This document shows, piece by piece, positions 7,648 through 57,535 of a stretch of DNA of 64,000 nt. The position numbers and the translations under genes were made by a program. The stretch lies in contig NZ_KQ031391.1 in the NCBI RefSeq assembly GCF_000966285.1, positions 2,318,640 to 2,382,639 on the forward strand. The letters are read 5' to 3'. Origin of the DNA: Pseudofrankia sp. DC12 (GTDB taxonomy: Bacteria > Actinomycetota > Actinomycetes > Frankiales > Frankiaceae). Within the stretch, counting starts at the first letter, position 1, and every line of letters begins with the position of its first letter. Below the pieces are notes generated by a model. It was not told the origin of the DNA. It saw only the letters and a program-made list of their open reading frames with translations, and did not search any database.

Positions 7648-8859
7648 TCAGCGCGAGGTGGGAGACCACCGGGCCCGCCAGGCGGCGACGTCCTGGTCGG
7701 CGGGGTCGACGCCGTCCGCGTGGGCGGACTCCTCGGCGCCGGCGAGCCGGTCCCGGAAGGCCCGAGCCCGCGCCCGGAGCGCGGCCTCGGGGTCGACACC
7801 GGCCGCCGCCGCCAGGGCGACGGCAGCGAAAAGGAGCTCACCAACGCCTCGCTCGTCCAGGTCAGGGGCGGCGGCGTACGACGCGACGGCCGCAGCGAGG
7901 GACCGTCCTGACAGCGTCTCTGGGTGGGCCGCGGACCGCGGGGCGAGGTCGGCCGGGCTGGCGCCCTCGGTGAGCACCGGCGCGACGACGAGGTCGGCGG
8001 GCAGGCCGGCCTTGCGCGCGCGCCTCTGCAGCTTGGCGGCGAGCGAGAGGGCCGGCTGGGTCAGCGGGACCCCGTCGGTGACCGAGCGCCGGCCCTTCTC
8101 GGCCTTCTTGATGGCCTCCCAGTTGGTGACCACCTCGTCGGCCCCGGCGACGTCCACGTCGCCGAACACGTGCGGGTGGCGGCGGACCAGCTTGCTCGCG
8201 ATGCCGTTCGCCACCTCGTCGACGTCGAAGCGCCCACCGCCCTCGTCGACGTGACCGTCGGTGGCGTCCTCGGCGACGCGGGCGTGAAAGACGACCTGCA
8301 TGAGGACGTCGCCGAGCTCCTCGCGCAGCTCCACCGGGTCGGCGTCCTCCAGCGCCTGGTACGCCTCGTACGCCTCCTCCAGCAGGTACGGGGCGAGCGA
8401 GCCGTGGGTCTGCTCGGCGTCCCACGGGCAGCCGCCGGGCGAGCGCAGGCGGTCCATCACCGCGACGACGTCCAGCAGCCGCGCGCCGGGCAGGTCGTGG
8501 GTGCCGGCGAGCAGGCGGACGCCAGCCGGCTCGCCGGTCGCGTGGGCCCGCAGGTGCGTGTCGGCGGCCGCCGCCAGGCCGGGCCAGGCGCCCGCCGGCT
8601 CCAGCAGCCAAACGACCTCGGACGCGCCGGCCGCCGCGGCGAGCGCTCGCGCGGGCTCGAGCGCGCACCCGTCCGACGCCTCGCCCGGCCCGGCGAGCAC
8701 CGTGACGTCGACACCCGCGGCCCGCAGCGCGGCGAGCTGGGGGTGCGCGGGATCGGCGCAGCAGACCGGGACCCGGCGAACCAGGTCCCAGGCGTCAGCG
8801 GTGAGCAGCCCGGGGGCGACCCGGGTGCTGGTCTCGAGCAGTGTTACCAGAGGTGTCAC
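7648..8859 (-). CDS. mazG: Nucleoside triphosphate pyrophosphohydrolase MazG
   Basis: 403 aa. MazG hydrolyses (d)NTPs to monophosphates and PPi, for house-cleaning of abnormal nucleotides. The metal-binding signature is clear: PWDAEQTH (145-152), EEAYE (161-165) and ELGDVLMQVVFHAR (181-194), followed by RRHPHVFGD and NWEAIKKAEK. The N-terminal 120 residues are an extra domain found in actinobacterial MazG, and the C-terminal 100 residues are Ala-rich. Its GTG start overlaps the stop of the SurA-like lipoprotein gene (GTGA), so the two are probably co-translated. Confidence 0.93.
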   Translation of the reverse strand: MTPLVTLLETSTRVAPGLLTADAWDLVRRVPVCCADPAHPQLAALRAAGVDVTVLAGPGEASDGCALEPARALAAAAGASEVVWLLEPAGAWPGLAAAADTHLRAHATGEPAGVRLLAGTHDLPGARLLDVVAVMDRLRSPGGCPWDAEQTHGSLAPYLLEEAYEAYQALEDADPVELREELGDVLMQVVFHARVAEDATDGHVDEGGGRFDVDEVANGIASKLVRRHPHVFGDVDVAGADEVVTNWEAIKKAEKGRRSVTDGVPLTQPALSLAAKLQRRARKAGLPADLVVAPVLTEGASPADLAPRSAAHPETLSGRSLAAAVASYAAAPDLDERGVGELLFAAVALAAAAGVDPEAALRARARAFRDRLAGAEESAHADGVDPADQDVAAWRARWSPTSR

Positions 8860-9629
8860 GAAGCCAGGTTAAGTTCCGGCACCGGCGTCGCCTTCGTCGC
8901 GATCGAGCCGTCGGCCGCGAGCACCGAGATGTCGTCCGCGCTCCACACGCCGAACCGCGGGTTCACCGAGACGTGGTCGGCGCGCGCGGCCGAGGCGAGG
9001 ATCGGCCGCAGCTTCGCATCCCGCTGCTGGTTCATCAGCTGGCGGGCCAGGAACGGGCTCGCCTCGGCGAAACTGAGCGGCAGGGACTTCACGTTGAACT
9101 GGGTCAGCGCGCTGGTGTAGGCCGACCTGACGTCCGCGCTCGACGCAACCAGGTCCGGCGCGATCGCGTCCTCGATCTTCGACTCGAGCGCGTAGGTCCG
9201 GATGATCGTCCGCAGGTCCTCGGGGGCGAACCCGGCCGAGGCACCGGCCTGCTCGAAGGCCGCGACGCTGCCGGAACCGAAGATCGCGTACGACTGGTAG
9301 TAGGCGTCGGCCTCCTGCGGGCTGAGCGTGATGCCGCGCTTGCGCGCCTCGGTGAGGTCGAGCTGGTACTCGACGAGGCTGCCCAACGTCCGGCGCTGCA
9401 GGTCGTCCCGGGTGACCGGGGTCTGCTGCGCTGCCGCGTCGGGATATGCGGTGGTGTAGGCGGTGTACGCGGCCATGCCGCGGTCGACGATGCCGCGCAC
9501 GGTTTCCGTGCCGATCGTCTTGTCGTCGACCTGCGCTGCGGCACCAACATGGCTGGTACATCCGGCCGCTGCCAGCGCGACCAGCCCGACCAGTCCGGCC
9601 ATGGCACCCAGCATCCGAGCACGCTTCAC
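8856..9629 (-). CDS. SurA-like (peptidyl-prolyl isomerase/chaperone N-domain) lipoprotein
   Basis: 257 aa. The signal peptide ends in a lipobox (LAAAGC, Cys24), so it is likely a membrane-anchored lipoprotein on the outer face. The helical body (about 30-200) resembles the SurA N-terminal chaperone domain. No parvulin isomerase domain is evident. I start it at the GTG at 9629, which has GGGAG about 8 bases upstream; a GTG at 9635 is too close to that site. The frame is open far upstream but lacks conserved features. Pairing with mazG by a 4-base overlap is common in actinobacteria. Confidence 0.82.
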   Translation of the reverse strand: MKRARMLGAMAGLVGLVALAAAGCTSHVGAAAQVDDKTIGTETVRGIVDRGMAAYTAYTTAYPDAAAQQTPVTRDDLQRRTLGSLVEYQLDLTEARKRGITLSPQEADAYYQSYAIFGSGSVAAFEQAGASAGFAPEDLRTIIRTYALESKIEDAIAPDLVASSADVRSAYTSALTQFNVKSLPLSFAEASPFLARQLMNQQRDAKLRPILASAARADHVSVNPRFGVWSADDISVLAADGSIATKATPVPELNLAS

Positions 9630-10037
9630 GGACACAACTCCCGACGGGGTCGTCCCCCAGTGGCGAGACCAGTACAGACGCCACGTTAGTCGGAGCACAT
9701 CGCGTGATGCAGCCAACCCCACCCAACATGGGGCCGACCGCGAAGCCACGCCGAGCCGCGAGGCAGCCCCTGCTCGCCCCGGCGGCCCCGGCGGCCCCGG
9801 CGGCCCCGGCGGCACGACCGCCGTGGCCCACACGGTGCCGACCTCGCGGCGATCATCCGCGACGCCGCTGGTCACCGCCGCGGCGCGTGGATACGTGCGG
9901 CGGAAATTGCTGGCGGTGCGTGCCGGAGCCTGGATTCGAGCGCCTCGGCGCCTGCCGTGCACAGTCGCCCCACAGGCCGAGCCGACCCGCCGTGGGTGGT
10001 GGTTTCCGGCGCCTCGCACGGGCCGCGAGCTCGACGC

Positions 10038-10058
10038 GGTCCCGCCGAGCACGGGACC
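10038..10058 (-). terminator. Hairpin after mfd
   Basis: Inverted repeat GGTCCCG / CGGGACC, 7-bp stem and 7-nt loop, starting 9 bases beyond the mfd stop. There is no U-tract, as is common in high-GC actinobacteria. A weak terminator candidate. Confidence 0.35.
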
Positions 10059-10066
10059 CGCGGACC

Positions 10067-13000
10067 TTACGGGCGGTTGGTGGCGGCGTTCACGGCCGCG
10101 CTGATGGAGTCGCCGAGGATGGCGGACAGCAGGTCGGCGGCCCAGGCCAGCAGCGGCTTGTCACGCAGGGCCGGCGAGCCGATGCGGCCAGTCTGCGTGG
10201 GCACGGGGACCAGGACGGTCTTCGCGGCGGGCTTGGTGACGGCGCCCTTGTAGAGGCGCTGCAGGCGGAGCGTCTGGCTCTCCCGCAGCTCCAGTGAGCC
10301 GAACCGGATCTGCTTGCCCGCCAAGGTGATCTCCGACAGGCCGTAGCCCCGGGCGAGCACCCGCAGCGAGGCGACGGCGAACAGGTTCTCCACCACCTCG
10401 GGCAGCGGGCCGAACCGGTCGACCAGCTCGGCGCGCACCTCGGCGAGGTCCGCGTCGCTGGCCGCGGCGGCCAGGCGGCGGTAGGCGTCCAGGCGCAGCC
10501 GCTCGGCGCCGACGTAGTCGTGCGGCAGGCTCGCGTCGACCGGCAGCTCGACCTTGACCTCCGGAAGCTCCTCGGGGGCCGCGCCCTTGAAGTCCGCGAC
10601 CGCCTCGCCGACCATCCGCACGTACAGGTCGAAACCGACCGCGGCGATGTGCCCGGACTGCTCGCCCCCGAGCAGGTTGCCGGCGCCGCGGATCTCCAGG
10701 TCCTTCATCGCGACGGCCATTCCCGCGCCGAGGTCGGTGTTCAGCGCGATGGTGGCCAGGCGGTCGTGCGCGGTCTCGGTCAGCGGCCGGTCCGGCGGGT
10801 AGAGGAAGTAGGCGTAGGCCCGCTCCCGGCCACGGCCGACCCGGCCGCGCAGCTGGTGCAGCTGGGACAGGCCGAAGACGTCGGCCCGCTCGACGATCAG
10901 CGTGTTCGCGTTGGAGATGTCCAGGCCGGACTCGACGATCGTCGTGCAGACCAGGACGTCGAACTTGCGCTCCCAGAAGGAGACCATCACCTTCTCGAGG
11001 ACGTCCTCGGAGAGCTGGCCGTGGGCGGTCGCGATCCGCGCCTCGGGGACCAGCTCACGCAGCCGGGCGGCGGCCCGGTCGATCGACTCGACCCGGTTGT
11101 GGATGAAGAAGACCTGGCCCTCGCGCAGCAGCTCGCGCCGGATCGCGGCCGCGACCTGGCGCGTGTCGTACGGGCTGACCGCGGTGAGCACCGGGTGGCG
11201 CTCCTCCGGCGGGGTGTCGATCGTCGAGAGCTCCCGGATGCCGGTGATCGACATCTCCAGCGTGCGCGGGATCGGGGTGGCGCTCATGGTGAGCACGTCC
11301 ACCGCCGTCCGCATCTTCTTCAGGTGCTCCTTGTGCTCGACCCCGAAGCGCTGCTCCTCGTCGACGATGACCAGGCCGAGGTCCTTGAACCTCGTCTCGT
11401 TCGAGAGCAGCCGGTGGGTGCCGATCACGACGTCGACGGTGCCGTCGGCCAGGCCGGCCAGCACCGCCTTCTGCTCGGTCGCCGTGTTGAACCGGCTCAT
11501 CGCCTTGACGATCACCGGGAACGCCGCGTAACGCTCGGAGAACGTCTGGAAGTGCTGCTGGACGAGCAGCGTGGTCGGAACCAGCACGGCGGCCTGCTTG
11601 CCGTCCTGGGCCGCCTTGAACGCGGCCCGCACAGCGATCTCGGTCTTGCCATAGCCGACGTCGCCGCAGATCACCCGGTCCATCGGGACCGCGCGCTCCA
11701 TGTCCCGCTTGACCTCGTCGATCGCGGACAGCTGGTCCGGGGTCTCCCGGAACGGGAACGCGTCCTCCAGCTCGCGCTGCCACGGGTTGTCGGGGGCGAA
11801 GGCGTACCCCGGCGCGGCCATCCGGGCGCTGTAGAGCCGGATCAGCTCGCCGGCGATCTCCTTGACGGCCTTCTGCGCGCGGCTCTTGCGCTTGGTCCAG
11901 TCGGCGCCGCCGATCCGGTCCAGGGTGGGCGCGTCGCCGCCGACGTAGCGAGTCACCAGCTCCAGCGCGTCGGTGGGGACGTAAAGGCGGTCACCCTTGG
12001 CGTACTCCAGGACGAGGTACTCGCGCTTGGCGCCGGCGACGGTGCGGGTGACCATCTCGACGTACCGGCCGACGCCGTGCGCCTCGTGGACGACCAGGTC
12101 ACCGACCGCGAGGGCCAGCGGGTCGATGCCCTTGCGCCGCCGGCTCGGCATCCGGCGCATGTCCTTGGTGGTGACGCCGCGCGCACCGGCCAGGTCGGTC
12201 TCGGTCAGCACCGCGAGGCGCAGCAGGTCGCTGGTGAAGCCGGTGACCAGCTGGCCCTGGGTGACGGTGACGACCGACGGGGCGAGCTCGGCGTCGTCGG
12301 TCAGCCGGGCGCCGAGATCGGCCTCGCGCAGCAGCTCGACCAGTCGCTGCGCCGGGCCGTGGCCCGCGGTGACCAGCAGGACCCGCCAGGAGTCGTTCAG
12401 CCAGCCCTTGACGTCGGCGAGCAGGCGGGCCGTGTCGCCGTGGTAGGCGGGCGGCGGGCGCAGGCTGGTCGCGACCGCCTCGTCGGGCACGTCGGAGGCG
12501 AGCGACTCGTCGGCGTCCGAGCCGTCGGCGCCGGCCACGGCGCCGAACTGGCTGACGGTCCACCAGGGCAGGCCGAGCTCGATGGCCCGGGCCCGGACGT
12601 CGGCCAGCGTGCGGTAGGCCGCCGAGCCCAGGTCGATGGGCGTCTCGGACCCCAGCGCGGCCGAGCTCCACGAGGCGGCCAGGAACTCCTGGCTGGTGCG
12701 GACCAGCTCAACGGCCCGGGCCCGGACCCGCTCGGGGTCACACAGCAGCACCTGGGTGCCGGCGGGCAGCTCGTCGAGCAGCAGCACCAGGTCGTCGACG
12801 AGGACCGGGGCCAGCGCCTCCATGCCCTCCACCGGGATACCGGACGCGATCTTGTCGAGCATGTCGACGAGGTCGGGGTGCTCCTGGGCCAGCCGCGCCG
12901 CCCGCGCCCGCACGTCCGGGTTCAGCAGCAGCTCGCGGCAGGGCGGGGCGAACAGGGCATAGCCGGTACCTGGGGACAGCGCGTCGAGCGCACGCTGGTC

Positions 13001-46903: not shown

Positions 46904-48007
46904 CTACCAGGCCGCTCGGGACGCGAGGCCCAACGCGTAGTCCGTCCAGAAGACGCCGGCTGCCGGGCCGCCGTTGCAGGTCCCGTCGGACTCGCCCGGC
47001 ATCTTGACCCACAACAGCGCGTCCACGGCCGCGCTGCCGGTGGCGGTCGTCGGCCGGGTGCCGAGTGCGCGGCCGACTGGGTTGCACAGCGGACCGGCCG
47101 CCGGTTTGCCAGCACCATTGCGGCTGGTGTCGATGACGAAGTGGGCGCCGGTCCCGAGGCGGGCGGCGATGGCCTCGCCGTAGGAGATCACCGCCGGCGT
47201 CTCCGTGAACAGAGAGGTGTTCAGCGCGAATCCGCGGACGGCCTCCACTCCGGCCTGCCGCAGCCGGGACGCCGCCTCGACCGAGCTCAGCCCGGCCCGG
47301 TTCGAGATGTCCAGGTACACAGCGGCACCCGCGCTGGTGAGCGTCGTAGCCGCCTCGCGCATCAGGGTGTAGGTGAGGCTCGCATCGGCCGGCTGAAGGC
47401 AGTCCAGATAGCCGAGGACACCGGGTTCCAGTACCACGGCGGCAGGACCCGGCTTGAGGCCGGCGGCGATCTGACCGATCCAGGCACGGTAGTCGGCGGC
47501 CGATCCGGGGCCGCTTGCCGGGTAGCCACGGCAGTCATGGGCCGGCAGGCGGTAGATGGCCAGCACCGGAGTCGCGCTGGCGAAGCGGGCGCCACCGACG
47601 ATGCCCGTCACGTTCGCCCTGACCTTGTTGGCCGGGTTCCAGGCGCCCAGCCAGATCGCGGTGGGCGTGTTGGCGATCTTGTCGAGGAGCGCGGCGTCAG
47701 CGGGACGAGCGGCCCGGATGGCGTCGGCCGCGTGGTCGACCTGGGTCCCTTCGACCTTGTAGAAGGGGCGACCCGCCAGCGGGTTCCCTCCGCTCGCCAC
47801 CGCACTGGCGGCGAGCGGGGCGATGACATCGGACGGCGGCGTGGGCTGTGTGGTCCCCACCACGTTCTCTTCGGCGCCGTTCTGACCGCATCCCGCGAGA
47901 ACGGCGGCCGCGAGCAGCACGACGCCGGCCAGCGAGTGGACGCCGCGGAATGCGAAGCTCCCGGATCGCGCCGTGGCCGCGCCAGCCGTTCGGGGAAACA
48001 GCCTCAC
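46904..48007 (-). CDS. GH6-family lipoprotein with altered catalytic acid (EPG)
   Basis: 367 aa. Lipobox LAGC (Cys40), a Thr/Pro-rich spacer, then a glycoside hydrolase family 6 domain (about 75-367). GH6 enzymes are endoglucanases or cellobiohydrolases. The HDCRGY (D158), YLD and WVKMPGESDGTCNGG motifs are retained. The general-acid motif VLEPD is changed to VLEPG (G196), read directly as GAA CCC GGT on the coding strand. It may be a catalytically weak or glycan-binding member. The start is the GTG at 48007 with GGAGG just upstream. It is divergent from the cslA operon. Confidence 0.87.
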   Translation of the reverse strand: MRLFPRTAGAATARSGSFAFRGVHSLAGVVLLAAAVLAGCGQNGAEENVVGTTQPTPPSDVIAPLAASAVASGGNPLAGRPFYKVEGTQVDHAADAIRAARPADAALLDKIANTPTAIWLGAWNPANKVRANVTGIVGGARFASATPVLAIYRLPAHDCRGYPASGPGSAADYRAWIGQIAAGLKPGPAAVVLEPGVLGYLDCLQPADASLTYTLMREAATTLTSAGAAVYLDISNRAGLSSVEAASRLRQAGVEAVRGFALNTSLFTETPAVISYGEAIAARLGTGAHFVIDTSRNGAGKPAAGPLCNPVGRALGTRPTTATGSAAVDALLWVKMPGESDGTCNGGPAAGVFWTDYALGLASRAAW

Positions 48008-48463
48008 AGGACCTCCACAGGAAACCGGATTCGGCCGAGCGTTGGTCAACTCATCCGCAGCCTGAATGCTAGACGCCGTTGTACAGATGAGTCCGGTCGG
48101 GCTCATCGGCATGATTCATGGCGGCGCGGGCCTCCGGCGCATGACGGCCGCTCGGGTATCTCCAGCCTTCCGCCATGAGCAGCCCCTGGCGGCGCCGTAC
48201 CGGCGACCTGCGACTTCTCGACCATCTCGACAGTTACGTGAGGGCATGTCTCACCCACTATCTGTCGTCATACGATCACACATCGGTCGAGCAATCGAAC
48301 GCCGCGAGCGTCCCCAGACAGTTACGTGAGAGGTGGGAAAACGGGGGCGGACGCCCCGCCTTATGGGCCAAAGAATCAGCAGATAATGTCTCGCCGGGAG
48401 CAGTGGGTACCCCGCCTGGCGCATCGCTGGGCCCGGTGACAGGCGGACGCCGGAAAGGATCTC
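48008..48463. promoter_or_regulatory. Divergent intergenic region with 14-bp direct repeats upstream of csl operon
   Basis: 456 bases with no convincing gene. GACAGTTACGTGAG occurs exactly at 48229-48242 and 48317-48330, 88 bases apart. Both precede the small membrane protein gene and cslA. A shorter match (TTACGTGAGGG) occurs near 24473, over the start of GH26-like paralogue B. The sites are candidates for a shared regulator; no promoter elements can be assigned. Confidence 0.45.
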
Positions 48464-49063
48464 GTGTCTATCGACAGGTCGGACGTTCCAGAGGCTGGGG
48501 ACAAGCCAGAGCCCCCAGCGGCTCTTGCCACGCCGCCACGGGGTGTCGGGCAGTGGCGACAGGGCGACCTGTCGAGGTACATCAGCCCCGCGGTCTGGAT
48601 CTGCGTGCTCGCGGCCGCGGTCGCGGTTCTCGGCTCCTTCCGGCACTGGTCGCGAGCAGCCCTCGCCGATCGTGGATCGGATCTTCTGGTCGTGACCGCG
48701 TCCGGATGGGACCTGGCCCCCAGCGGCCAGCTCGTGTTCGCGCTCGCGTTGCTGGTCATGCTCGTCTGCCTGCTGGCGCCGCACACCGGCCGGCTGCGGT
48801 GGGCCTGGCTCGTGCCGCCAGTGGCGGGCGCCGCGATCATCGTGCTCGCGGCGACCCGGATCGGTGCCGGCGAGCCGGCCGCCCACAAGCTGACCCGGCT
48901 GCGGATCGGGACGTTCCAGACCGACCATCCCGTGGTGGCCACGAGTACCGGTCACGGGCTGTGGCTCACCATCGCCGCCGGGTTACTCGTCGCGGCTGCT
49001 GGAACGGTCGTCGCGGTACTCCAGCGGAGCGCGCCGCCGGCCGTGACGGCGAAGCAACGGTGA
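48464..49063 (+). CDS. Four-helix membrane protein of unknown function
   Basis: 199 aa, no family recognised. A 40-residue Pro/Asp-rich N-terminus is followed by membrane helices at about 41-59, 88-105, 112-131 and 165-186. The GTG at 48464 follows GGAAAGGATCTC, a usable ribosome site. It lies 145 bases upstream of cslA on the same strand. It may be an accessory of the glycan synthase, in the position where other synthases have small membrane subunits. This is inference from position only. Confidence 0.6.
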   Translation: MSIDRSDVPEAGDKPEPPAALATPPRGVGQWRQGDLSRYISPAVWICVLAAAVAVLGSFRHWSRAALADRGSDLLVVTASGWDLAPSGQLVFALALLVMLVCLLAPHTGRLRWAWLVPPVAGAAIIVLAATRIGAGEPAAHKLTRLRIGTFQTDHPVVATSTGHGLWLTIAAGLLVAAAGTVVAVLQRSAPPAVTAKQR

Positions 49064-49208
49064 GTGCATCCGACTCGGGAGCCAGGCTTCAAGCGACTGA
49101 CGACACGACGGTTCACGGCGTGTCGGTGACGCCGGTGAACGTCGGCCCGCGGGCGACCGCGAAGACGTCGCGTGGCTATCGAAAATCTTCAGAAGACTTG
49201 GGACTGCG

Positions 49209-51434
49209 GTGACATACGACTACGCCACCTTCTCGACGCTCGCCGGGACGCCGACCCTGGCTCGCGGCGGGTCTGACTACCGGGTCGCCTACCGGCGCGT
49301 GATGGTGGGCCGCGAGCTGCGTCAGGTCCTGCCACTGCTCGTCGTGACCCTGGGCCTGTCGTCATTGTTCTTCGTCTGGCTGATCCAGCCTCAGCACTAC
49401 CCTGACGGTCGCTATCTCCCGACCGGCGTCCGCGTCGGCAACGCCATCATGTTCTGGTTGATCGTGGTGACCGAGGGTATTCGCCTGCTGAATTCGATCA
49501 CCCTGTGCTGGTCATCCGTCATCATGCGTAACCCGATACCGGTCCTGCCGATGCCCGGCCTGCGGGTCGCCTTCACGACCACGATTGTGCCGTCGAAGGA
49601 GCCGCTGGACGTCGTCCGCGACACGCTGATCGCCGCCCGCAACATCCAGTATGAGCGACCGATCGACGTATGGCTGCTGGACGAGGGTGACGACCCAGCC
49701 GTGCGGGCCATGTGCGAGGAGATCGGGGTACGGCATTTCAGCCGCAAGGGCGTTGCCGAATGGAACACCTCGGCGGGCCCGTTCCGGGCCAAGACCAAAC
49801 ACGGCAACCACAACTCATGGCTCGCCGCACACGGTGACGACTACGACGTGGTGCTCTCCGTCGACCCCGACCATATACCGCTACCAAACTTCGCGGACCG
49901 GATGCTCGGCTACTTCCGCGACCGGAACGTCGCCTTTGTGGTCGGCCCGCAGGTCTACGGGAACTTCCGGCACTATCTGACCCGGGGCGCGGAAGCGCAG
50001 AACTACATGTTCCACTCCGTGATACAGCGGGCGGCGAACCGGTTCGCCTCAGGCATGTTCGTCGGCACCAACCACGCCTACCGCGTCGCCACCTGGCGCC
50101 AGATCGGCGGCTTCCAGGACTCGATCACGGAAGATCTCGCGACCTCGCTCGCCGTACACAGCGCACGCAACCCGGACACCAACCACCGCTGGACCTCCGT
50201 GTACACGCCGGACGTCGTCGCGGTCGGCGAGGGCCCGGCGAGCTGGACCGATTTCTTCAACCAGCAGCTGCGTTGGGCCAGGGGTTCCAACGAGGTCATG
50301 GTCACAGACGCGCCGCGCCGGCTCAAGGCGCTCGACTGGGGGCCGCGGCTGCATTACCTGACGCTGATGCTGCACTATCCGACGATCGCCATCACCTGGA
50401 TACTCGGCATGGCGCTGACAATCTTCTACATGGCGCTTGGGTCGACCGGCGTCGTGGTCCACGTGTCGGCCTGGCTGGCGCTCTACATCGACGTGTTCCT
50501 GGCCCGCCTCCTGCTCTATTTCTGGCTGCGGCGCTTCAACATCAGCCCGCATGAGGAAAAGGGCAGCGCCGGGATGTCCGGCATCTTCGTCTCGGTGCTC
50601 TGCACGCCGTTCTACTCGAGCGCGCTGATCGGCGCGCTGCTGCGCCGCAAGCTCGGTTTCGTGGTGACCCCCAAGGGCCGCGCCGCAAGCCCGGACCATC
50701 TGCTCACCTTCCGAAAGCATCTGTTCTGGGCGGCGATCTCGGCCGGGTCGATCATCGCGGCCGCGAGCCTCGGGCATATTTACCCGGCGAACCTCGTCTG
50801 GGCGTCGCTGTCGCTGCTCACCTGCGTCATTCCCATCGCGCTGTGGCTGGTCGAGCCGGTTCTCGCCCCGCGCCGGGCCAAATCGCCGAACCCGCTCCCC
50901 TCCGCGCACATACCCAGACAACGGGTCGATCCCACACGGCCCACGGGGGCGCCGGCCGCGCCCGGCTTCGGTACCGGAACGACCGACGCGACCGGTCCGC
51001 TGATCGGGCCTCTTCCACAACCGCCGGCCTTGTTGCCGCGCACCGCTGGTCTGGGCGAGACCATCGAGGCCCCCGACGACACGGGGATCGCGCACGTCCC
51101 GGCAATAGCCGCGGCGGCCGACCGGCGCGCGGCCACCGGGCCTCAGCCCGTCATCGCCCGTGGGAGTGACCTGGTGGACGCGGGCGTGCCAGCCGGCGTC
51201 CGTCCCATCGGCGTCACGGCCCAGGACGAGCGCAGCCCGACAGGCGACACCGCCGTGACAGCGCGTCCGGGCGAAGCCCGGCCCGAGGACGCACTGCCCG
51301 CCCCCGAAGAGCCGGCCCTCCCAAGCCCCTCCACGACCGGGGGCCTGCCCATCTACACCGAGGACGTGACACTCGTCCTGCATCCGCGCCGCCGCAGGGT
51401 GTCCCTCGATGGCCAGTTGGAGGAGATCACCTGA
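49209..51434 (+). CDS. cslA: Cellulose synthase-like glycosyltransferase (CslA type)
   Basis: 741 aa processive GT2 synthase. Membrane helices near 41-58 and 78-98 precede a cytoplasmic GT-A domain with all processive-synthase motifs: D158 (LLDEGD), D219/D221 (SVDPDH), TED (307-309) and QQLRW (352-356). Four to six helices follow (to about 560), then a disordered tail of about 180 residues. Streptomyces CslA makes a beta-glucan-type polymer at hyphal tips and is paired with GlxA. Its stop TGA overlaps the glxA ATG (ATGA), so the pair is translationally coupled. No PilZ domain is seen. Confidence 0.9.
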   Translation: MTYDYATFSTLAGTPTLARGGSDYRVAYRRVMVGRELRQVLPLLVVTLGLSSLFFVWLIQPQHYPDGRYLPTGVRVGNAIMFWLIVVTEGIRLLNSITLCWSSVIMRNPIPVLPMPGLRVAFTTTIVPSKEPLDVVRDTLIAARNIQYERPIDVWLLDEGDDPAVRAMCEEIGVRHFSRKGVAEWNTSAGPFRAKTKHGNHNSWLAAHGDDYDVVLSVDPDHIPLPNFADRMLGYFRDRNVAFVVGPQVYGNFRHYLTRGAEAQNYMFHSVIQRAANRFASGMFVGTNHAYRVATWRQIGGFQDSITEDLATSLAVHSARNPDTNHRWTSVYTPDVVAVGEGPASWTDFFNQQLRWARGSNEVMVTDAPRRLKALDWGPRLHYLTLMLHYPTIAITWILGMALTIFYMALGSTGVVVHVSAWLALYIDVFLARLLLYFWLRRFNISPHEEKGSAGMSGIFVSVLCTPFYSSALIGALLRRKLGFVVTPKGRAASPDHLLTFRKHLFWAAISAGSIIAAASLGHIYPANLVWASLSLLTCVIPIALWLVEPVLAPRRAKSPNPLPSAHIPRQRVDPTRPTGAPAAPGFGTGTTDATGPLIGPLPQPPALLPRTAGLGETIEAPDDTGIAHVPAIAAAADRRAATGPQPVIARGSDLVDAGVPAGVRPIGVTAQDERSPTGDTAVTARPGEARPEDALPAPEEPALPSPSTTGGLPIYTEDVTLVLHPRRRRVSLDGQLEEIT

Positions 51435-53029
51435 TGGCGACGACGGAATGGTTGGGTGCGCCGCGCCGCCGACGCGTATTCCAGATTTGTTGCCTCGCCA
51501 TCATCCTGGTGGCCGGCAACGGGCCGTTCGTCCGCGGCTGGGCGACGGACGAGTACGACAGCTGGAAAGCACACCAGCCGCAGTACGAGCGCCAGTACGG
51601 CCGGTGGGACGTGGTCGCGGACTCGAAGTCGAGGACCGTCCACGCGGCGCTCCTGCACAGCGGCAAGGTCCTGCTGATGTCCGGATCGGGCAACAGCCAG
51701 GACAACTTCGACGCGAAGAAGTTCACGACGCTGTTGTGGGACCCGACGGCGAACACGTTCCAGAACGTCTACACACCGTGGGACGTCTTCTGCGCCGGAC
51801 ATGCGTTCCTGCCCGACGGGGAGCTGCTGATCGCCGGCGGGACGAAGAAGTACGAGGTCCTGGCGCAGGACTCGCCGGACGGCAAGAAGCACGAGTACCA
51901 GGGGCTGAAGGACTCGTACGTCTTCAATCCGGATACCGAGCGCTACGAGAAGGTCGGCTCCCTGAACTATGCGCGGTGGTATCCGACGCTTGTCACGCTG
52001 GCCAACGGCGCCGTGGTAGCGGTGTCCGGGCTGAACGAGGACGGCCAGATCGATCCGGGTAACACCGAGTCCTTCGACCAGGCCACCCAGACCTGGATCA
52101 CGCATCCGGACCTGGTTAAGGAGTTCCCGACCTACCCATCGCTGCTCCTCACCGCCGACGGCCGGTTGTTCTTCTCCGGCGCGAACGCCGGCTATGGGCC
52201 GGCAAGCCTCGCGGCCAGGCAGTCCGGCCTCTGGAACCTCACGAACAACGCATTCCAGCCGGTGCTGGGCCTGCCCCTGCCCGAACTCAACGAGACCGCT
52301 GGTACCGTGCTGCTGCCGCCGGCCCAGGAACAGAAAGTGATGTTCATCGGCGGCGGTGGCGTAGGGGACACCCAGACGTTGACCGCCAGGACGGCCATCG
52401 TCGACCTGAATTCATCCAACCCGGCCTGGCAGCGGGGCCCGGACCTGTCGGTCGCCAAGCGATACCCTGGCGCGGTGGTTCTGCCCGACGACACAGTGCT
52501 GGTCTCCGGCGGTTCTGCGGCGTACCGCGCCAAGGACTCCCTGACGGCGGAGATCTATCACCCCGACACCAACCAGTTCACGAGGGCCGCCGATCCGACC
52601 GTCGGCCGGGACTATCACTCCGAGTACCTTCTGCTACCTGACGGCCGGGTCGCGGTGTTCGGGTCGAACCCTCTCACCGACAACAACTTCTTCGAGACCC
52701 GCGTCGAGGTCTACTCACCCGCCTATCTCTTCCGCGGGGTCCGTCCCGTGATCCAGTCCGCGCCAGCGGCTGCCACCCGGGGCACGACGATCAACATCAC
52801 TTCTTCCCAGAAGGTGTCGAAGGTGCGCCTGATCCGGGCGGGCGCGTACACCCATGTCACCGACACCGAGCAGCGGTCGGTGGAGTTGCCGATCGTGCAG
52901 CAGGCGAATGGCGTCGTCACGGTGAGCGTGCCGGACAACGCCAACCTGCTCCCGCCGGACTACTACATGCTCTTCGTCGACAATGGCGACAACGTTCCAT
53001 CGGTGGCCAAGTGGGTGCAGGTCCACTGA
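51434..53029 (+). CDS. glxA: Galactose oxidase-like copper radical oxidase (GlxA type)
   Basis: 531 aa. A signal anchor (about 14-36) is followed by a seven-bladed kelch-type propeller and a C-terminal immunoglobulin-like (DUF1929) domain. Residues expected for the mononuclear copper site and Tyr-Cys cofactor are present: C120 (VFCAGHAF), Y155 (HEYQGL, tentative), Y394-H395 (RDYHSEYLLLPDG) and H474 (AYTHVTD). In S. lividans GlxA the crosslink is Cys121-Tyr157, a close positional match. It oxidises glycans or aldehydes made by CslA. It overlaps cslA by 1 base and the following GH6 gene by 19 bases. Confidence 0.88.
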   Translation: MATTEWLGAPRRRRVFQICCLAIILVAGNGPFVRGWATDEYDSWKAHQPQYERQYGRWDVVADSKSRTVHAALLHSGKVLLMSGSGNSQDNFDAKKFTTLLWDPTANTFQNVYTPWDVFCAGHAFLPDGELLIAGGTKKYEVLAQDSPDGKKHEYQGLKDSYVFNPDTERYEKVGSLNYARWYPTLVTLANGAVVAVSGLNEDGQIDPGNTESFDQATQTWITHPDLVKEFPTYPSLLLTADGRLFFSGANAGYGPASLAARQSGLWNLTNNAFQPVLGLPLPELNETAGTVLLPPAQEQKVMFIGGGGVGDTQTLTARTAIVDLNSSNPAWQRGPDLSVAKRYPGAVVLPDDTVLVSGGSAAYRAKDSLTAEIYHPDTNQFTRAADPTVGRDYHSEYLLLPDGRVAVFGSNPLTDNNFFETRVEVYSPAYLFRGVRPVIQSAPAAATRGTTINITSSQKVSKVRLIRAGAYTHVTDTEQRSVELPIVQQANGVVTVSVPDNANLLPPDYYMLFVDNGDNVPSVAKWVQVH

Positions 53030-54069
53030 TCCGCGGCCGCCGTCTCGCCACCGCGCTGCTGGGTCTCGTGCTCAGCGGCTGTGGCGGCGTGAGCGCGACC
53101 GAGGACGCGCAGACGCCGGCCAGCGCGGCTCCCGAGGCCCGGTGCACAACCGGTGCTTCGGGAACCCCGGCTGTCGGGTCGGGCGCCACCGGGACCGTCC
53201 CTCGGGAGCCGTTTCTGGTGGACACCGCCAGCCAGGCGGCACTGCAGGCCGCGGCCGACCCGGCGCACGCGGCCGAGATCGCCCTGTTGGTGCGGACGCC
53301 GACCGCTTTCCCAGTCGGGGACTGGCTGACCGACGTGACCGGGCAGGTCCGCCGTCGGGCCGCGGCGGCCGTGGCAACCGGGTCCACCGCCGTCTTCATG
53401 GTCTATGCCATCCCACACCGGGACATCGGGGCTGGCTTCTCCTCCGGTGGATTCCGGACAGCGGAGGCCTACCGGGCCTTCACCCGCCAGGTCGCGGCCG
53501 GTATTGGGACTGCCCGCGCGGTCGTGGTCCTCGAGCCGGACTCGCTCGCGCAGCTCGACCAGCTGACGGCTGCCCAGCAGGCAGAACGCTACGGGCTGCT
53601 GAATGACGCCGTCGATGTCTACGGCCGGCTACCGGGTACCAGCGTCTACCTGGACGGAGCGAACTGCGGCTGGACACAGGCGTCCGTCATCGCCGAACGC
53701 CTGAAAAATGCCGGCGTGGGCCGTGCCCGTGGTTTCGCGGTCAACGTCGCCAACTACTACCGGACAACGGACGAGGTCACGCGCGGCGACGTGATTTCCG
53801 CGCTCACCGGCGGAGCGCACTTCGTCGTGGACACCTCACGCAACGGCCGAGGCGCCGTCAGCGGCATCGTCAACGCCTGGTGCAACCCTCCCGGCCGGGG
53901 GCTCGGCCCGGCACCGACAACAGACACCGGCGATCCCCGCGCCGACGCCTTTCTTTGGATCAAGACGCCGGGAGCCAGCGACGGGACCTGCGGCCGAGGT
54001 GACCCCGCGGCCGGGCAGTGGTGGCAGGCCCAGGCCGAAGAACTCGTCCGCAACGCCGAGGGGCACTGA
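53011..54069 (+). CDS. GH6 glycoside hydrolase lipoprotein (CslZ-like)
   Basis: 352 aa. A short signal peptide with lipobox LSGC (Cys24) is followed by a GH6 domain with R137-D138 (IPHRDIG), the catalytic acid D177 (VLEPDSLAQLD), VYLDGANCGW and the C-terminal KTPGASDGTC. It would cut beta-1,4-glucan outside the membrane. The third gene of the Streptomyces cslA-glxA locus, cslZ, is also a GH6 enzyme, so this is the likely counterpart. The GTG at 53011 lies inside glxA, a 19-base overlap that indicates one operon. Confidence 0.88.
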   Translation: MGAGPLIRGRRLATALLGLVLSGCGGVSATEDAQTPASAAPEARCTTGASGTPAVGSGATGTVPREPFLVDTASQAALQAAADPAHAAEIALLVRTPTAFPVGDWLTDVTGQVRRRAAAAVATGSTAVFMVYAIPHRDIGAGFSSGGFRTAEAYRAFTRQVAAGIGTARAVVVLEPDSLAQLDQLTAAQQAERYGLLNDAVDVYGRLPGTSVYLDGANCGWTQASVIAERLKNAGVGRARGFAVNVANYYRTTDEVTRGDVISALTGGAHFVVDTSRNGRGAVSGIVNAWCNPPGRGLGPAPTTDTGDPRADAFLWIKTPGASDGTCGRGDPAAGQWWQAQAEELVRNAEGH

Positions 54070-54136
54070 CAGCCGCCGGGCCGGGGCTCCGGGCACAGCC
54101 GAACCGACCAGGCGGCCTTGGGGCGGGCGACGGCCC

Positions 54137-54167
54137 TGCCGGCCCCGCGAGGTCCGCGGGGCCGGCA
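54137..54167 (+). terminator. 13-bp perfect hairpin ending the csl operon
   Basis: TGCCGGCCCCGCG / CGCGGGGCCGGCA with a 5-base loop, 68 bases after the GH6 stop and before the next GH6 gene. It probably marks the end of the cslA-glxA-GH6 transcript. Confidence 0.6.
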
Positions 54168-54250
54168 CCCAGAAGCAGGCGGCGGCCGCTCTGGTAGTAG
54201 ACTGCCGTCACCCGCAATCGCGGTCGTTGAGTGGGCCGTCCGGAGGTCTG

Positions 54251-55516
54251 GTGCGCAAAGCTACGCACCCTCGGGAGGCTCGTGCCGCGAATACCGGCGG
54301 CCATCGCCGGCCCGCGCGCCGCGGCGTTCGTCCGTTCTGGTCGCCTTCGACATCGCGACTGTGTTTCGTGCTCGCGGTGGTGCTCGCGGTATTCGGAGGA
54401 TTCGTCCTCCAGAACCGGGTCCTCGCCGCCGGATCGACGGATACCGCGACGCTCGGTCCCGCGAGGTCGAATGCCACGCAGGTGCCCGGCGGAACGCTGG
54501 GTGCACTCATTGCCGCCACGCCGGCCGCGACCCAGTCGACCCAGTCGAGTCAGCCGACGGCCCAGGCGACACCGACCTCGGTTCCCACGACCGCGCCGGC
54601 GGCGGCCTCCCCGCGACCGGCTCCAGCCGTCCGAACGGATGACCCCTTCGGCGGCGCCACCTTCTACGTCGATCCGGAAAGCGACGCGGCAGCGGCTGTC
54701 CGCGCTCTACAGTCGTCGGCTCCGGCCGATGCCGCCACGTTGTCCCGGCTGGCGAACGGCTCGGCAGCCGCCTGGTTCGGGGATCACGACCCCGCCACGC
54801 TTCAGTCGAGGCTTTCGGCCTGGGTCGGCAAGCTACACGGGGCCGGCGCGCTGCCGGTCGTGGTCGCCTACGGCATACCGAACCGGGACTGCGGCGGCTA
54901 TTCGGCCGGCGGGCTGGCGAGCCCGGACGCGTACCGGGCGTGGATCTCCGCATACGCGGCCGGCATCGGCCGCGGACCGGTCGCGGTGATCCTGGAGCCG
55001 GATGCCCTGGCCCAGATCGACTGCCTGTCGTCGGCCGATGCCCAGACCCGCTACGCGCTGCTCCGCTACGCGGTGGACACGCTCACGTCAGCGGGCGCCA
55101 GTGTGTATATCGACGCTGGCAACGCGAAATGGCACAACGCCTCCGACATGGTGGCCCGGCTTCGGCAGGCGGGTGTCGACCGTGCCCGCGGGTTCGCGCT
55201 GAACGTGTCGAACTTCGATGACACCGCCGATGAGCTGGCCTACGGTGACGCCATCGCCGGGGGGCTCGGTGGCGGCACACACTTCGTGATCGACACGTCC
55301 CGCAACGGTCAGGGGCGAGCACCGGACGGTGCTTGGTGCAACCCGCCCGGACGAGGCCTGGGCGCCCGGCCGACGGCGGCCACCGGCGATGCCCGGGCGG
55401 ACGCGTTCCTGTGGATCAAAATCCCAGGCGAGTCAGACGGCACGTGCAACGGTGGACCGGGCGCGGGACAATGGTGGCTGGACTACGCATTGGGGCTCGC
55501 CCGTCGGTCGGTCTGA
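54251..55516 (+). CDS. GH6 glycoside hydrolase, membrane-anchored
   Basis: 421 aa. A basic N-terminus and one membrane helix (about 37-55) are followed by a Thr/Ser/Pro/Ala spacer (about 60-130) and a GH6 domain. R212-D213 (IPNRDCGGY), D251 (VILEPDALAQID), VYIDAGNAKWH and KIPGESDGTCNGG are all intact. GGAGG lies 4 bases before the GTG at 54251. It is a close paralogue of the genes at 46904-48007 and 53011-54069. A hairpin separates it from the csl operon, so it probably has its own promoter. Confidence 0.88.
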   Translation: MRKATHPREARAANTGGHRRPARRGVRPFWSPSTSRLCFVLAVVLAVFGGFVLQNRVLAAGSTDTATLGPARSNATQVPGGTLGALIAATPAATQSTQSSQPTAQATPTSVPTTAPAAASPRPAPAVRTDDPFGGATFYVDPESDAAAAVRALQSSAPADAATLSRLANGSAAAWFGDHDPATLQSRLSAWVGKLHGAGALPVVVAYGIPNRDCGGYSAGGLASPDAYRAWISAYAAGIGRGPVAVILEPDALAQIDCLSSADAQTRYALLRYAVDTLTSAGASVYIDAGNAKWHNASDMVARLRQAGVDRARGFALNVSNFDDTADELAYGDAIAGGLGGGTHFVIDTSRNGQGRAPDGAWCNPPGRGLGARPTAATGDARADAFLWIKIPGESDGTCNGGPGAGQWWLDYALGLARRSV

Positions 55517-55710: not shown

Positions 55711-56586
55711 CTACGACGAGGCCGCCGATTCGTGCTCACGAGGAAGGGGCACGGCGGCCAGCAGAGGGGCTGCCGGGCTCTGCTCCCAGATCGCCCACGG
55801 CCGCACGTCGGAGGCCCACAGCTCATCAAGGACCTGCCGGTCCTTCGCCGTGTCCATGGACCGCCAGAAGCCGGTATATGGATACGCGTGCAGAGCGCCG
55901 GCCCGAGCCAGGCGGCGGAACGGCTCGTCGACCAGATCCTCGCCGTCCCCCAACACCGAGAACACGTCAGGACGCATCACGAAGAACCCGCCGTTGACGA
56001 AGACCCGCTCGTCGGCGAGCGGGCCTATCGCCTCGACGGCGCTCGTGCCCGGGCGCATCCGGATCGAATGCAATGACGACGGCGGCGGAACCGCCAGCAT
56101 CGTCGCGACGGCCCCGGTCCGCCGGGCCGCCTCGATCATGTCCGGCAGCGGGACATCGGAAAGGCCGTCGGCATAGTTCGCCAGGAAGAGATCTTCGTCG
56201 GCGACGAGATCCCGGGCCGCCTTCAGCCGTTGCCCGACAAGCGCATCCAGGCCGCTGTCCAGTACCGTCACCCGCCAGCCGGCCGCCATACCGTCCAGAA
56301 GATGGTGCGTGACCACCCCCGGACAGGGCGTCGGCTCGTCCCTCCGGTGCTCGCTCAGCTGCTGCACCCAGGCACGCACGAATTCCGCACGGAAACCGAC
56401 GCAAAGAATGAAGTCGTTGTGCCCATGCGCCGCGTACCAGTTCATGAGGTGCCACAGGACAGGGCGCCCACCAACCGGGTGCAGCGGCTTCGGTGCATCG
56501 GTCGCCCGCTTCGGCGCGAAACGTCGAGTCGAATCCGTCTCCAGGAGCCGCTGCCCCTGGCCACCACAGAACAGAACGACCTTCAC
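55711..56586 (-). CDS. Sugar-1-phosphate nucleotidyltransferase (RfbF-related)
   Basis: 291 aa. It resembles glucose-1-phosphate cytidylyltransferase: VVLFCGGQGQRL (3-14), KPLHPVGGRPVLWHLM, ANYADGLSD and GFWRSMDTAKDR. The usual GxGTR loop reads GQGQR, and about 12 extra residues lie before the KPLHP motif. Nucleotide or sugar specificity may therefore differ from the rfbF product at 16188-17027. The GTG at 56586 begins the conserved sequence. It is divergent from the PIG-L gene across a 949-base gap. Confidence 0.82.
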   Translation of the reverse strand: MKVVLFCGGQGQRLLETDSTRRFAPKRATDAPKPLHPVGGRPVLWHLMNWYAAHGHNDFILCVGFRAEFVRAWVQQLSEHRRDEPTPCPGVVTHHLLDGMAAGWRVTVLDSGLDALVGQRLKAARDLVADEDLFLANYADGLSDVPLPDMIEAARRTGAVATMLAVPPPSSLHSIRMRPGTSAVEAIGPLADERVFVNGGFFVMRPDVFSVLGDGEDLVDEPFRRLARAGALHAYPYTGFWRSMDTAKDRQVLDELWASDVRPWAIWEQSPAAPLLAAVPLPREHESAASS

Positions 56587-57535
56587 TCGTTGCTCTCTTT
56601 TCCCCGCCGCTCTACGCGGCAGACAGAACACTCCTCGGTACGCAAGAAAGCGCACGCTCCGCCGAGACCTTTCTGGCAGATCCGGCGGGTATCTGAATCT
56701 CCCCTCCCACCCAGGCCTGGCCACGCCAGACCAGGCGGTGGGCCCCGCCTTTCAGGACACCCGCCCCGAGGCTGCCTCCACCCCTCCCCAGAGAATATGT
56801 ACCCTGCCCGCACCACAGAATCAACTCTCCCCGAGCGGAAGATACGGCCGCCCTCAAATGCAACCTCCCCTGTTCATGGGTCCCGGGTTCCGGGCCCGCG
56901 AGGCCACCGTGTCGGTGATCCGCGCCGAGGGGGTCCTGGCAGCGGCTCCGAAGTCCTGTGACACTAACCACTCGCCACCTCGGACCACTCGGCGAGCCAC
57001 CGTTCCGGATCATCACACCAAGGCCGCCTCGACGTCTTCCCAAGGGGTTTCGCCCGCCGAGACCGCGCGGACAACTCTCCCCAAGCGTAAGGCCAAGCCT
57101 TTCGCAAACAGAAGGCCTACCCTTCCTGGAGGTAAGGTTTTGGTGCCCTGTGGCAGTTCCGTACCGATGATTCACACGGGCCCGAGAAGGAGATCGACCA
57201 GTTCGGAGAGCGACCACACTGCGACTGTTCGCCAGAGGCTGCGCCGCACAGCCGCAAGAGTGCGGTCGCGGACCGGCCTCCTGGGGGTCGCTTATCGGGC
57301 CGGTGCGGCTGTGCGGTTACCGTCAAGGAGACGAGTACCGTGTGGACTTGACCGAACGGCGCGGAAGGCAACCGGAACACGGTCCGAAGTGATCCGGGCC
57401 GTTCAATTCGACCGGCAGGAGCGTGAAGTGTGGACCGTGGTCCTTTGAGACTTCCTCGGCCGGCGTGCCGGTGAACCGGTCGAGAGTCTCGACGCTGTTG
57501 GCGCCCAAGCGGTCGCGTAGGCACGGATAGTCACC
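56587..57535. other. Long non-coding region with imperfect direct repeat
   Basis: 949 bases between divergent nucleotidyltransferase and PIG-L genes. Long open frames exist but lack conserved motifs. Two segments, about 56755-56846 and 57012-57098, share colinear similarity (CAACTCTCCCC then AGCG at their ends; GAGGCTGCCTCCAC versus AAGGCCGCCTCGAC earlier). The region could hold divergent promoters, a small RNA or a decayed gene. Confidence 0.45.

Follow-up and report, generated by a model that had tools for sequence, protein, structure and literature searches.

The stretch analyzed here, referred to as the window, comprises 64,000 nucleotides of the genome of Pseudofrankia sp. DC12, a single contig of 6,884,336 bases, and contains a csl-type locus with three GH6 proteins around one glycan synthase. 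The subject of this report is the minus-strand member of the three, named PSE, which lacks the catalytic acid of the family and appears to have been maintained in that state. The arrangement is as the first-pass annotation described it: PF01341 matches flank the GT2 synthase at 49209-51434 and its GlxA-type oxidase. On the plus strand the order is small membrane protein, cslA, glxA, GH6A, and GH6B, and PSE is divergent from them on the minus strand. PSE, GH6A, and GH6B are the only GH6 proteins in the whole DC12 genome. The features are as follows.

46904..48112, minus strand: PSE, acid-less GH6 protein and putative lipoprotein (PF01341, E 2.8e-49); the GH6 domain begins near residue 108, and two Parafrankia genomes have an orthologue
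47420..47422, minus strand: codon GGT (Gly) at the acid position of PSE, equivalent to D117 of Thermobifida fusca Cel6A
48464..49063, plus strand: small membrane protein, divergent from PSE (PF09534 weak, below cut-off); position kept in other Frankiaceae csl loci
49209..51434, plus strand: CslA-type GT2 glucan synthase (PF13632/PF13641; TIGR03030 below cut-off); syntenic
51434..53029, plus strand: GlxA-type radical copper oxidase (PF09118; NF052501 at 653.9 bits, below the cut-off of 800); syntenic
53011..54069, plus strand: GH6A, putative lipoprotein GH6 (PF01341, E 1.4e-56); acid Asp kept, Trp41 replaced by Pro and Glu263 by Ala (T. fusca numbering)
53999..55516, plus strand: GH6B, with canonical GH6 residues throughout (PF01341, E 7.6e-66); a membrane anchor is suggested by a hydrophobic segment. 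Since the open reading frame (ORF) start overlaps GH6A, the actual start is farther downstream
55711..56724, minus strand: glucose-1-phosphate cytidylyltransferase-like protein (TIGR02623, 1.4e-51, below cut-off)

PSE is a GH6 protein by homology and by its predicted fold. It scored 169.1 bits against PF01341 (cut-off, 27), and an AlphaFold2 model of its domain, built from 11 sequences, reached a mean pLDDT of 86.2 and a pTM of 0.89. The model matched GH6 structures at Z scores of 29 to 40, the best being those of Mycobacterium tuberculosis Cel6 (1up0, Z 39.5, root mean square deviation 1.9 over 288 residues; 1uoz, Z 39.4). Its weak stretch, residues 90 to 96, is the altered active-site loop of PSE. 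Aligning the three proteins with T. fusca Cel6A bore out the earlier report that two copies carry the acid Asp and the minus-strand copy a Gly: the motif reads EPD in GH6A and GH6B and EPG in PSE. The Asp of this motif is D117 of T. fusca Cel6A (numbering checked), the catalytic acid, and D221 in Trichoderma reesei. The residue numbers given earlier need partial correction. D177 is right, D251 becomes D335 when the 505-aa ORF is numbered, and the Gly numbered 196 is residue 231 in the ATG-started ORF of PSE, where the number varies because the choice of start codon is uncertain. The signatures R/H-D-C and PGESDGTC are not common to all three proteins, as had been stated; GH6A reads HRDIG and PGASDGTC.

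The loss at the active site extends well beyond the acid. A GH6 alignment of 118 rows was used, made up of 113 intact rows (two of them references of solved structure), the 3 PSE, and 2 Streptomyces-type proteins that are degenerate; five fragment rows of ≤200 aa were excluded. Core positions were defined as the 44 columns that are ≥95% conserved among the 113 intact rows. All three PSE proteins deviate at the same seven of these (R78, G86, D117, the V133 column, W162, N190, and W231) and keep the other 37. There is no core position at which all rows of GH6A, or all three rows of GH6C, a GH6 of another Frankiaceae genus, deviate, and GH6B of the window has no core deviation at all. The losses and retentions fall on different sides of the cleft. 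First, the stacking tryptophans are gone, W231 (+1) being L/V/V and W162 (+2) being G/T/T in the three proteins. Second, W41, Y73, D79, D156, R237, K259, E263, and D265 (T. fusca numbering) are retained in all three, including the base-path Asp of the (R)DC motif (D79; D175 in T. reesei), which is preceded by His in place of Arg. On the basis of spacing, we match W41, W231, and W162 with W135, W367, and W269 of T. reesei. A review places these at subsites -2, +1, and +2 of TrCel6A (PMC3962180), and in simulations K395, E399, and D401 contact the sugars at -1/-2 (PMC6091422); the subsite roles used here, including that of Glu263, come from these simulation and review papers. Taken together, the kept and lost residues mean that the acid and the aglycone half of the PSE cleft are gone and the glycone (-2/-1) half is retained. 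The first-pass annotation had the rest of the fold retained. This holds for the fold and the -2/-1 half-site only: the +1/+2 tryptophans are gone, as are the loop Gly and three further core residues.

Such a loss appears rare. All 39 non-PSE Frankiaceae rows of more than 200 aa retained the acid Asp, as did 73 of the 74 GH6 rows taken from outside the family. The latter come from a survey of 60 places hand-picked among the matches listed, plus ten loci and L082, so that natural acid-less GH6 amounts to 1 of 74 sampled rows outside Frankiaceae. L082, from Microlunatus endophyticus, has two GH6 stretches (8001-8864 and 9730-10548) with Asp117 kept, His at Asp156, and no Trp162.

PSE was found in 3 of 35 Frankiaceae genomes belonging to two genera: DC12, Parafrankia colletiae Cc1.17, and Parafrankia sp. 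EUN1f. A profile of the PSE domain gave 587 to 608 bits for these three and at most 387 for every other protein in the family. In all three loci the gene is divergent and upstream of the membrane protein-cslA-glxA-GH6A-GH6B series; the divergent intergenic DNA of the three showed no clear common element besides a stretch before the membrane-protein start. An Asp in orthologues had been named in advance as the observation that would speak against a non-catalytic protein. None was seen: the position is Gly (GGT) in DC12, Gly (GGT) in P. colletiae (L081), and Ala (GCA) in EUN1f (L080). The Gly itself is therefore conserved in one orthologue but not in the other. Because the position is Gly, Gly, and Ala, and never Asp, across two genera, the loss of the acid is old and not a strain mutation, and the earlier suggestion of a recent inactivation is not supported, the loss being common to both genera. 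Outside Frankiaceae, a search of 393 evenly drawn genomes of the class detected no PSE at or below E 1e-85. A scan of genome contigs brought up nothing beyond the two Parafrankia loci and a single Microlunatus GH6, which has the Asp; more distant orthologues could have been missed in it, because it used two peptide patterns only and a first scan found no relative.

The wider distribution qualifies the earlier view that the number of GH6 copies is unusual. GH6 occurs in 22 of the 35 Frankiaceae genomes, and 17 have at least two matches; in draft genomes, some of these are pieces of a single gene. Two copies (GH6A and GH6B) beside csl are the ordinary Frankiaceae state, and the new part is the acid-less third. 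Within the genus of DC12, GH6 is found in one of eight genomes, and no GlxA match at E 1e-60 was obtained in the other seven (G001-G007). Since only DC12 has GH6 or a GlxA match at that threshold, the whole locus is accessory in that genus, lost elsewhere or gained.

A careful tree was built from 53 hand-chosen rows of the 118, and a quick tree from all of them. PSE forms a single clade (ultrafast bootstrap/SH-aLRT, 100/100) that is sister to the intact GH6C (100/99), and its stem is long, 0.61 compared to 0.16 for GH6C. The ratios of nonsynonymous to synonymous substitution (dN/dS, NG86, three pairs each), for which synonymous sites are partly saturated, were 0.36, 0.35, and 0.24 for PSE, 0.26, 0.24, and 0.25 for GH6B, and 0.20, 0.24, and 0.22 for GH6A. 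Gap columns in the GH6 domain of the three PSE pairs numbered 0, 3, and 3. PSE is thus under purifying selection, with a dN/dS resembling that of its active neighbor GH6B, and the long stem with the low dN/dS fits a single burst of change and constraint thereafter. A catalytic residue lost in all orthologues while purifying selection continues, here in three sequences only, is what defines a maintained pseudoenzyme.

Our reading, to which we give a probability of about 60%, is that the csl locus of Frankiaceae has in PSE a GH6 pseudoenzyme that is being maintained, and that this protein probably sits at the surface as a lipoprotein and binds glucan or partner proteins. Its parts differ in strength. 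Judging from its residues, PSE is very probably catalytically dead on normal beta-glucans, and it is likely to be functional rather than decaying; that its main role is glycan binding is a tentative proposal. The protein would be exported as a lipoprotein, going by its sequence pattern, and would act outside the membrane beside the CslA-GlxA synthase, unable to cleave beta-1,4 bonds. The retained -2/-1 half-site may hold a glucan chain, cleaved or nascent, by its non-reducing end, or else cello-oligosaccharides that have been released; alternatively, PSE may dock to the active GH6 copies. In either case it could tether the chain or tune its trimming. Two published results underlie this picture of a protein that does not cut and may grip or dock. 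Replacement of the same acid (Asp120) by Ala in Streptomyces coelicolor CslZ abolishes activity on peptidoglycan (PG) and carboxymethyl cellulose (PMC9040799), and an acid-dead HmCel6A, D140A, still binds cello-oligosaccharides (PMC8940973). The first-pass annotation had likewise offered a non-catalytic partner, and the Gly and Ala of the orthologues together with purifying selection agree with this; glycan binding would be the part inferred from sequence.

Several observations weigh against this reading. First, PSE is known from three sequences only, two of which are close (84% identity). Second, its residues at several lost positions are not uniform (G/A, G/T, L/R, and L/V), which looks more like constraint relaxed at these positions than like a newly formed specific site. 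Third, dN/dS between the DC12 and P. colletiae proteins, 0.36, is somewhat higher than the 0.26 of GH6B. Fourth, the lipoprotein assignment comes from a bare pattern match, a lipobox-like LAGC ending at Cys75 of the ATG ORF. Finally, wild-type CslZ did not bind firmly to cellulose, chitin, or PG (PMC9040799), and the PSE cleft has fewer tryptophans, so that binding by PSE could be weak or absent.

The alternative that survives best, although we consider it unlikely, is that PSE is a protein-protein partner only, whose GH6 surface docks CslA-GlxA or competes with GH6A and GH6B for partners without binding sugar. The lost positions cluster in the cleft with the core kept, as would suit docking, and a strong CslZ-LpmP interaction was seen by two-hybrid assay in S. 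coelicolor (PMC9040799). Streptomyces csl loci pair CslZ with LpmP, whereas DC12 has no LPMO_10 gene (0 in the genome, compared to at least one in 15 of the 35 Frankiaceae genomes), which makes that pair unavailable there. However, W41, Y73, K259, E263, D265, and D79 are kept in all three PSE proteins and would be needless for docking, though these are slow sites family-wide.

It is improbable that PSE is a slowly decaying duplicate that has lost its activity with its frame still open. The small number of genomes carrying it, the accelerated stem, and the variable residues at several former catalytic sites would fit decay, but the dN/dS far below 1, the few gaps in the GH6 domain, the position conserved in two genera, and the 37 of 44 core positions kept do not. 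What decay of a CslZ looks like can be seen in a sister pair of Streptomyces-type GH6 proteins whose active sites are degenerate (L160 3534-5951, plus strand, and L161 5089-6156, minus strand). L161 is the sole acid-less row among the 74 outside Frankiaceae (Asp117 to Gly), L160 keeps the acid with Asp79 changed to Gly, and both are without the +1/+2 tryptophans. They deviate at 9 (L160) and 8 (L161) core positions, including K259 and Y73, both of which PSE keeps. Each of their genomes has one GH6, and the best GlxA match, at 41%, is either on a different contig or distant from the GH6 gene, compared to a 49% GlxA adjoining GH6 in two comparison genomes. The degeneration of L160 and L161 looks like decay following loss of the csl locus, whereas PSE adjoins an intact one.

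An enzyme with altered chemistry, either substrate-assisted cleavage of a modified glucan or use of an activated donor needing no general acid, is very unlikely. All three proteins retain Asp79 of the base path and the residues at -1, and the neighboring GlxA could oxidize the glucan; against this, the acid position is variable (G/A), no new carboxylate was present in the motif windows examined, the +1/+2 platforms are lost, and the same Asp is essential in CslZ. Finally, that the Gly is a sequencing error or arose by mutation recently and in this strain only has a negligible chance; no support for it was found, and it is ruled out by the orthologues in two separate Parafrankia records, which lack the Asp and share six other losses.

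An alteration of another kind, missed by the first-pass annotation, affects GH6A at Trp41 and Glu263. Across Frankiaceae, Trp41 is lost in 17 of 18 GH6A rows and Glu263 is replaced by Ala in 16 of the 17 with the column filled; the early-branching copy of G022 keeps Glu263. The acid is kept, and the losses are the -2 platform (Trp41) and the residue contacting O6 at -1 (Glu263). The three proteins might therefore divide labor, a speculative and on balance doubtful scheme. GH6B would be a full hydrolase, and GH6A a glycone-remodeled one, perhaps fitted to a chain oxidized at C6 by GlxA (an oxidation that we assume). PSE, not cutting, would grip the non-reducing ends made by GH6A and GH6B and anchor the glucan to the membrane. 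If this is true, PSE would be a natural GH6 lectin that arose by losing half a cleft.

Two neighboring genes also recur. The small membrane protein at 48464-49063, for which profile matching gave no family above cut-off, occupies the same place beside cslA in most Frankiaceae csl loci read. The cytidylyltransferase-like gene accompanies the csl locus in several relatives (L047, L051, L053, and weakly L049), and in L047 and L051 it sits between both GH6 genes.

The closest described system is the cslA-glxA-cslZ locus of Streptomyces. CslA and GlxA of Streptomyces lividans form a cellulose synthase complex (PMC11022532), and CslZ is a GH6 lipoprotein beside them; PSE, a putative lipoprotein, likewise lies beside cslA-glxA in all three of its loci. 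However, CslZ retains the acid, Asp120, and acts on PG, cellulose, and chitin (PMC9040799), whereas PSE has no acid, falls outside the clade of sampled csl-linked Streptomyces-type GH6, and groups with Frankiaceae GH6C. The latter (L030, L050, and L052, genus g7) keeps the catalytic and subsite residues except at variable sites such as H159 and N190, and the stretches of L050 and L052 that were read showed no csl genes. DC12 is a cluster 4 Frankia, Pseudofrankia (PMC9680954), and a non-infective isolate (PMC10252897) tabulated with one each of celA1, glxA, and bcsA (PMC9194555). Its locus is of the same kind (cellulase, glx, cellulose synthase) as the "cellulase synton" of Frankia alni (FRAAL4954-4959; cel, glx, bcsA), for which a role in early host contact has been proposed (PMC8951365, PMC9379372); the portions of the published descriptions available to us do not mention an acid-less member. 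Nor was a natural acid-less GH6 found in the literature searched for inactive GH6, the cellulase synton, and Frankia GH6, as far as those texts were accessible. Among solved structures, M. tuberculosis Cel6 (1up0/1uoz) is closest, with 46% identity over the GH6 domain, but unlike PSE it has EPD, HRDC, both tryptophans, and PGESDGTC. The laboratory acid mutants TrCel6A D221A (1hgy/4ax7) and HmCel6A D140A (6k55) have the same acid removed and the fold kept; PSE differs in being natural and in having additionally lost the +1/+2 platforms and loop residues. PSE provides a well-defined example of a cellulase that has very probably lost its catalysis within a locus for cellulose synthesis, one linked in Frankiaceae to early host contact (PMC8951365), and it makes testable whether glucan deposition needs binding besides cutting.

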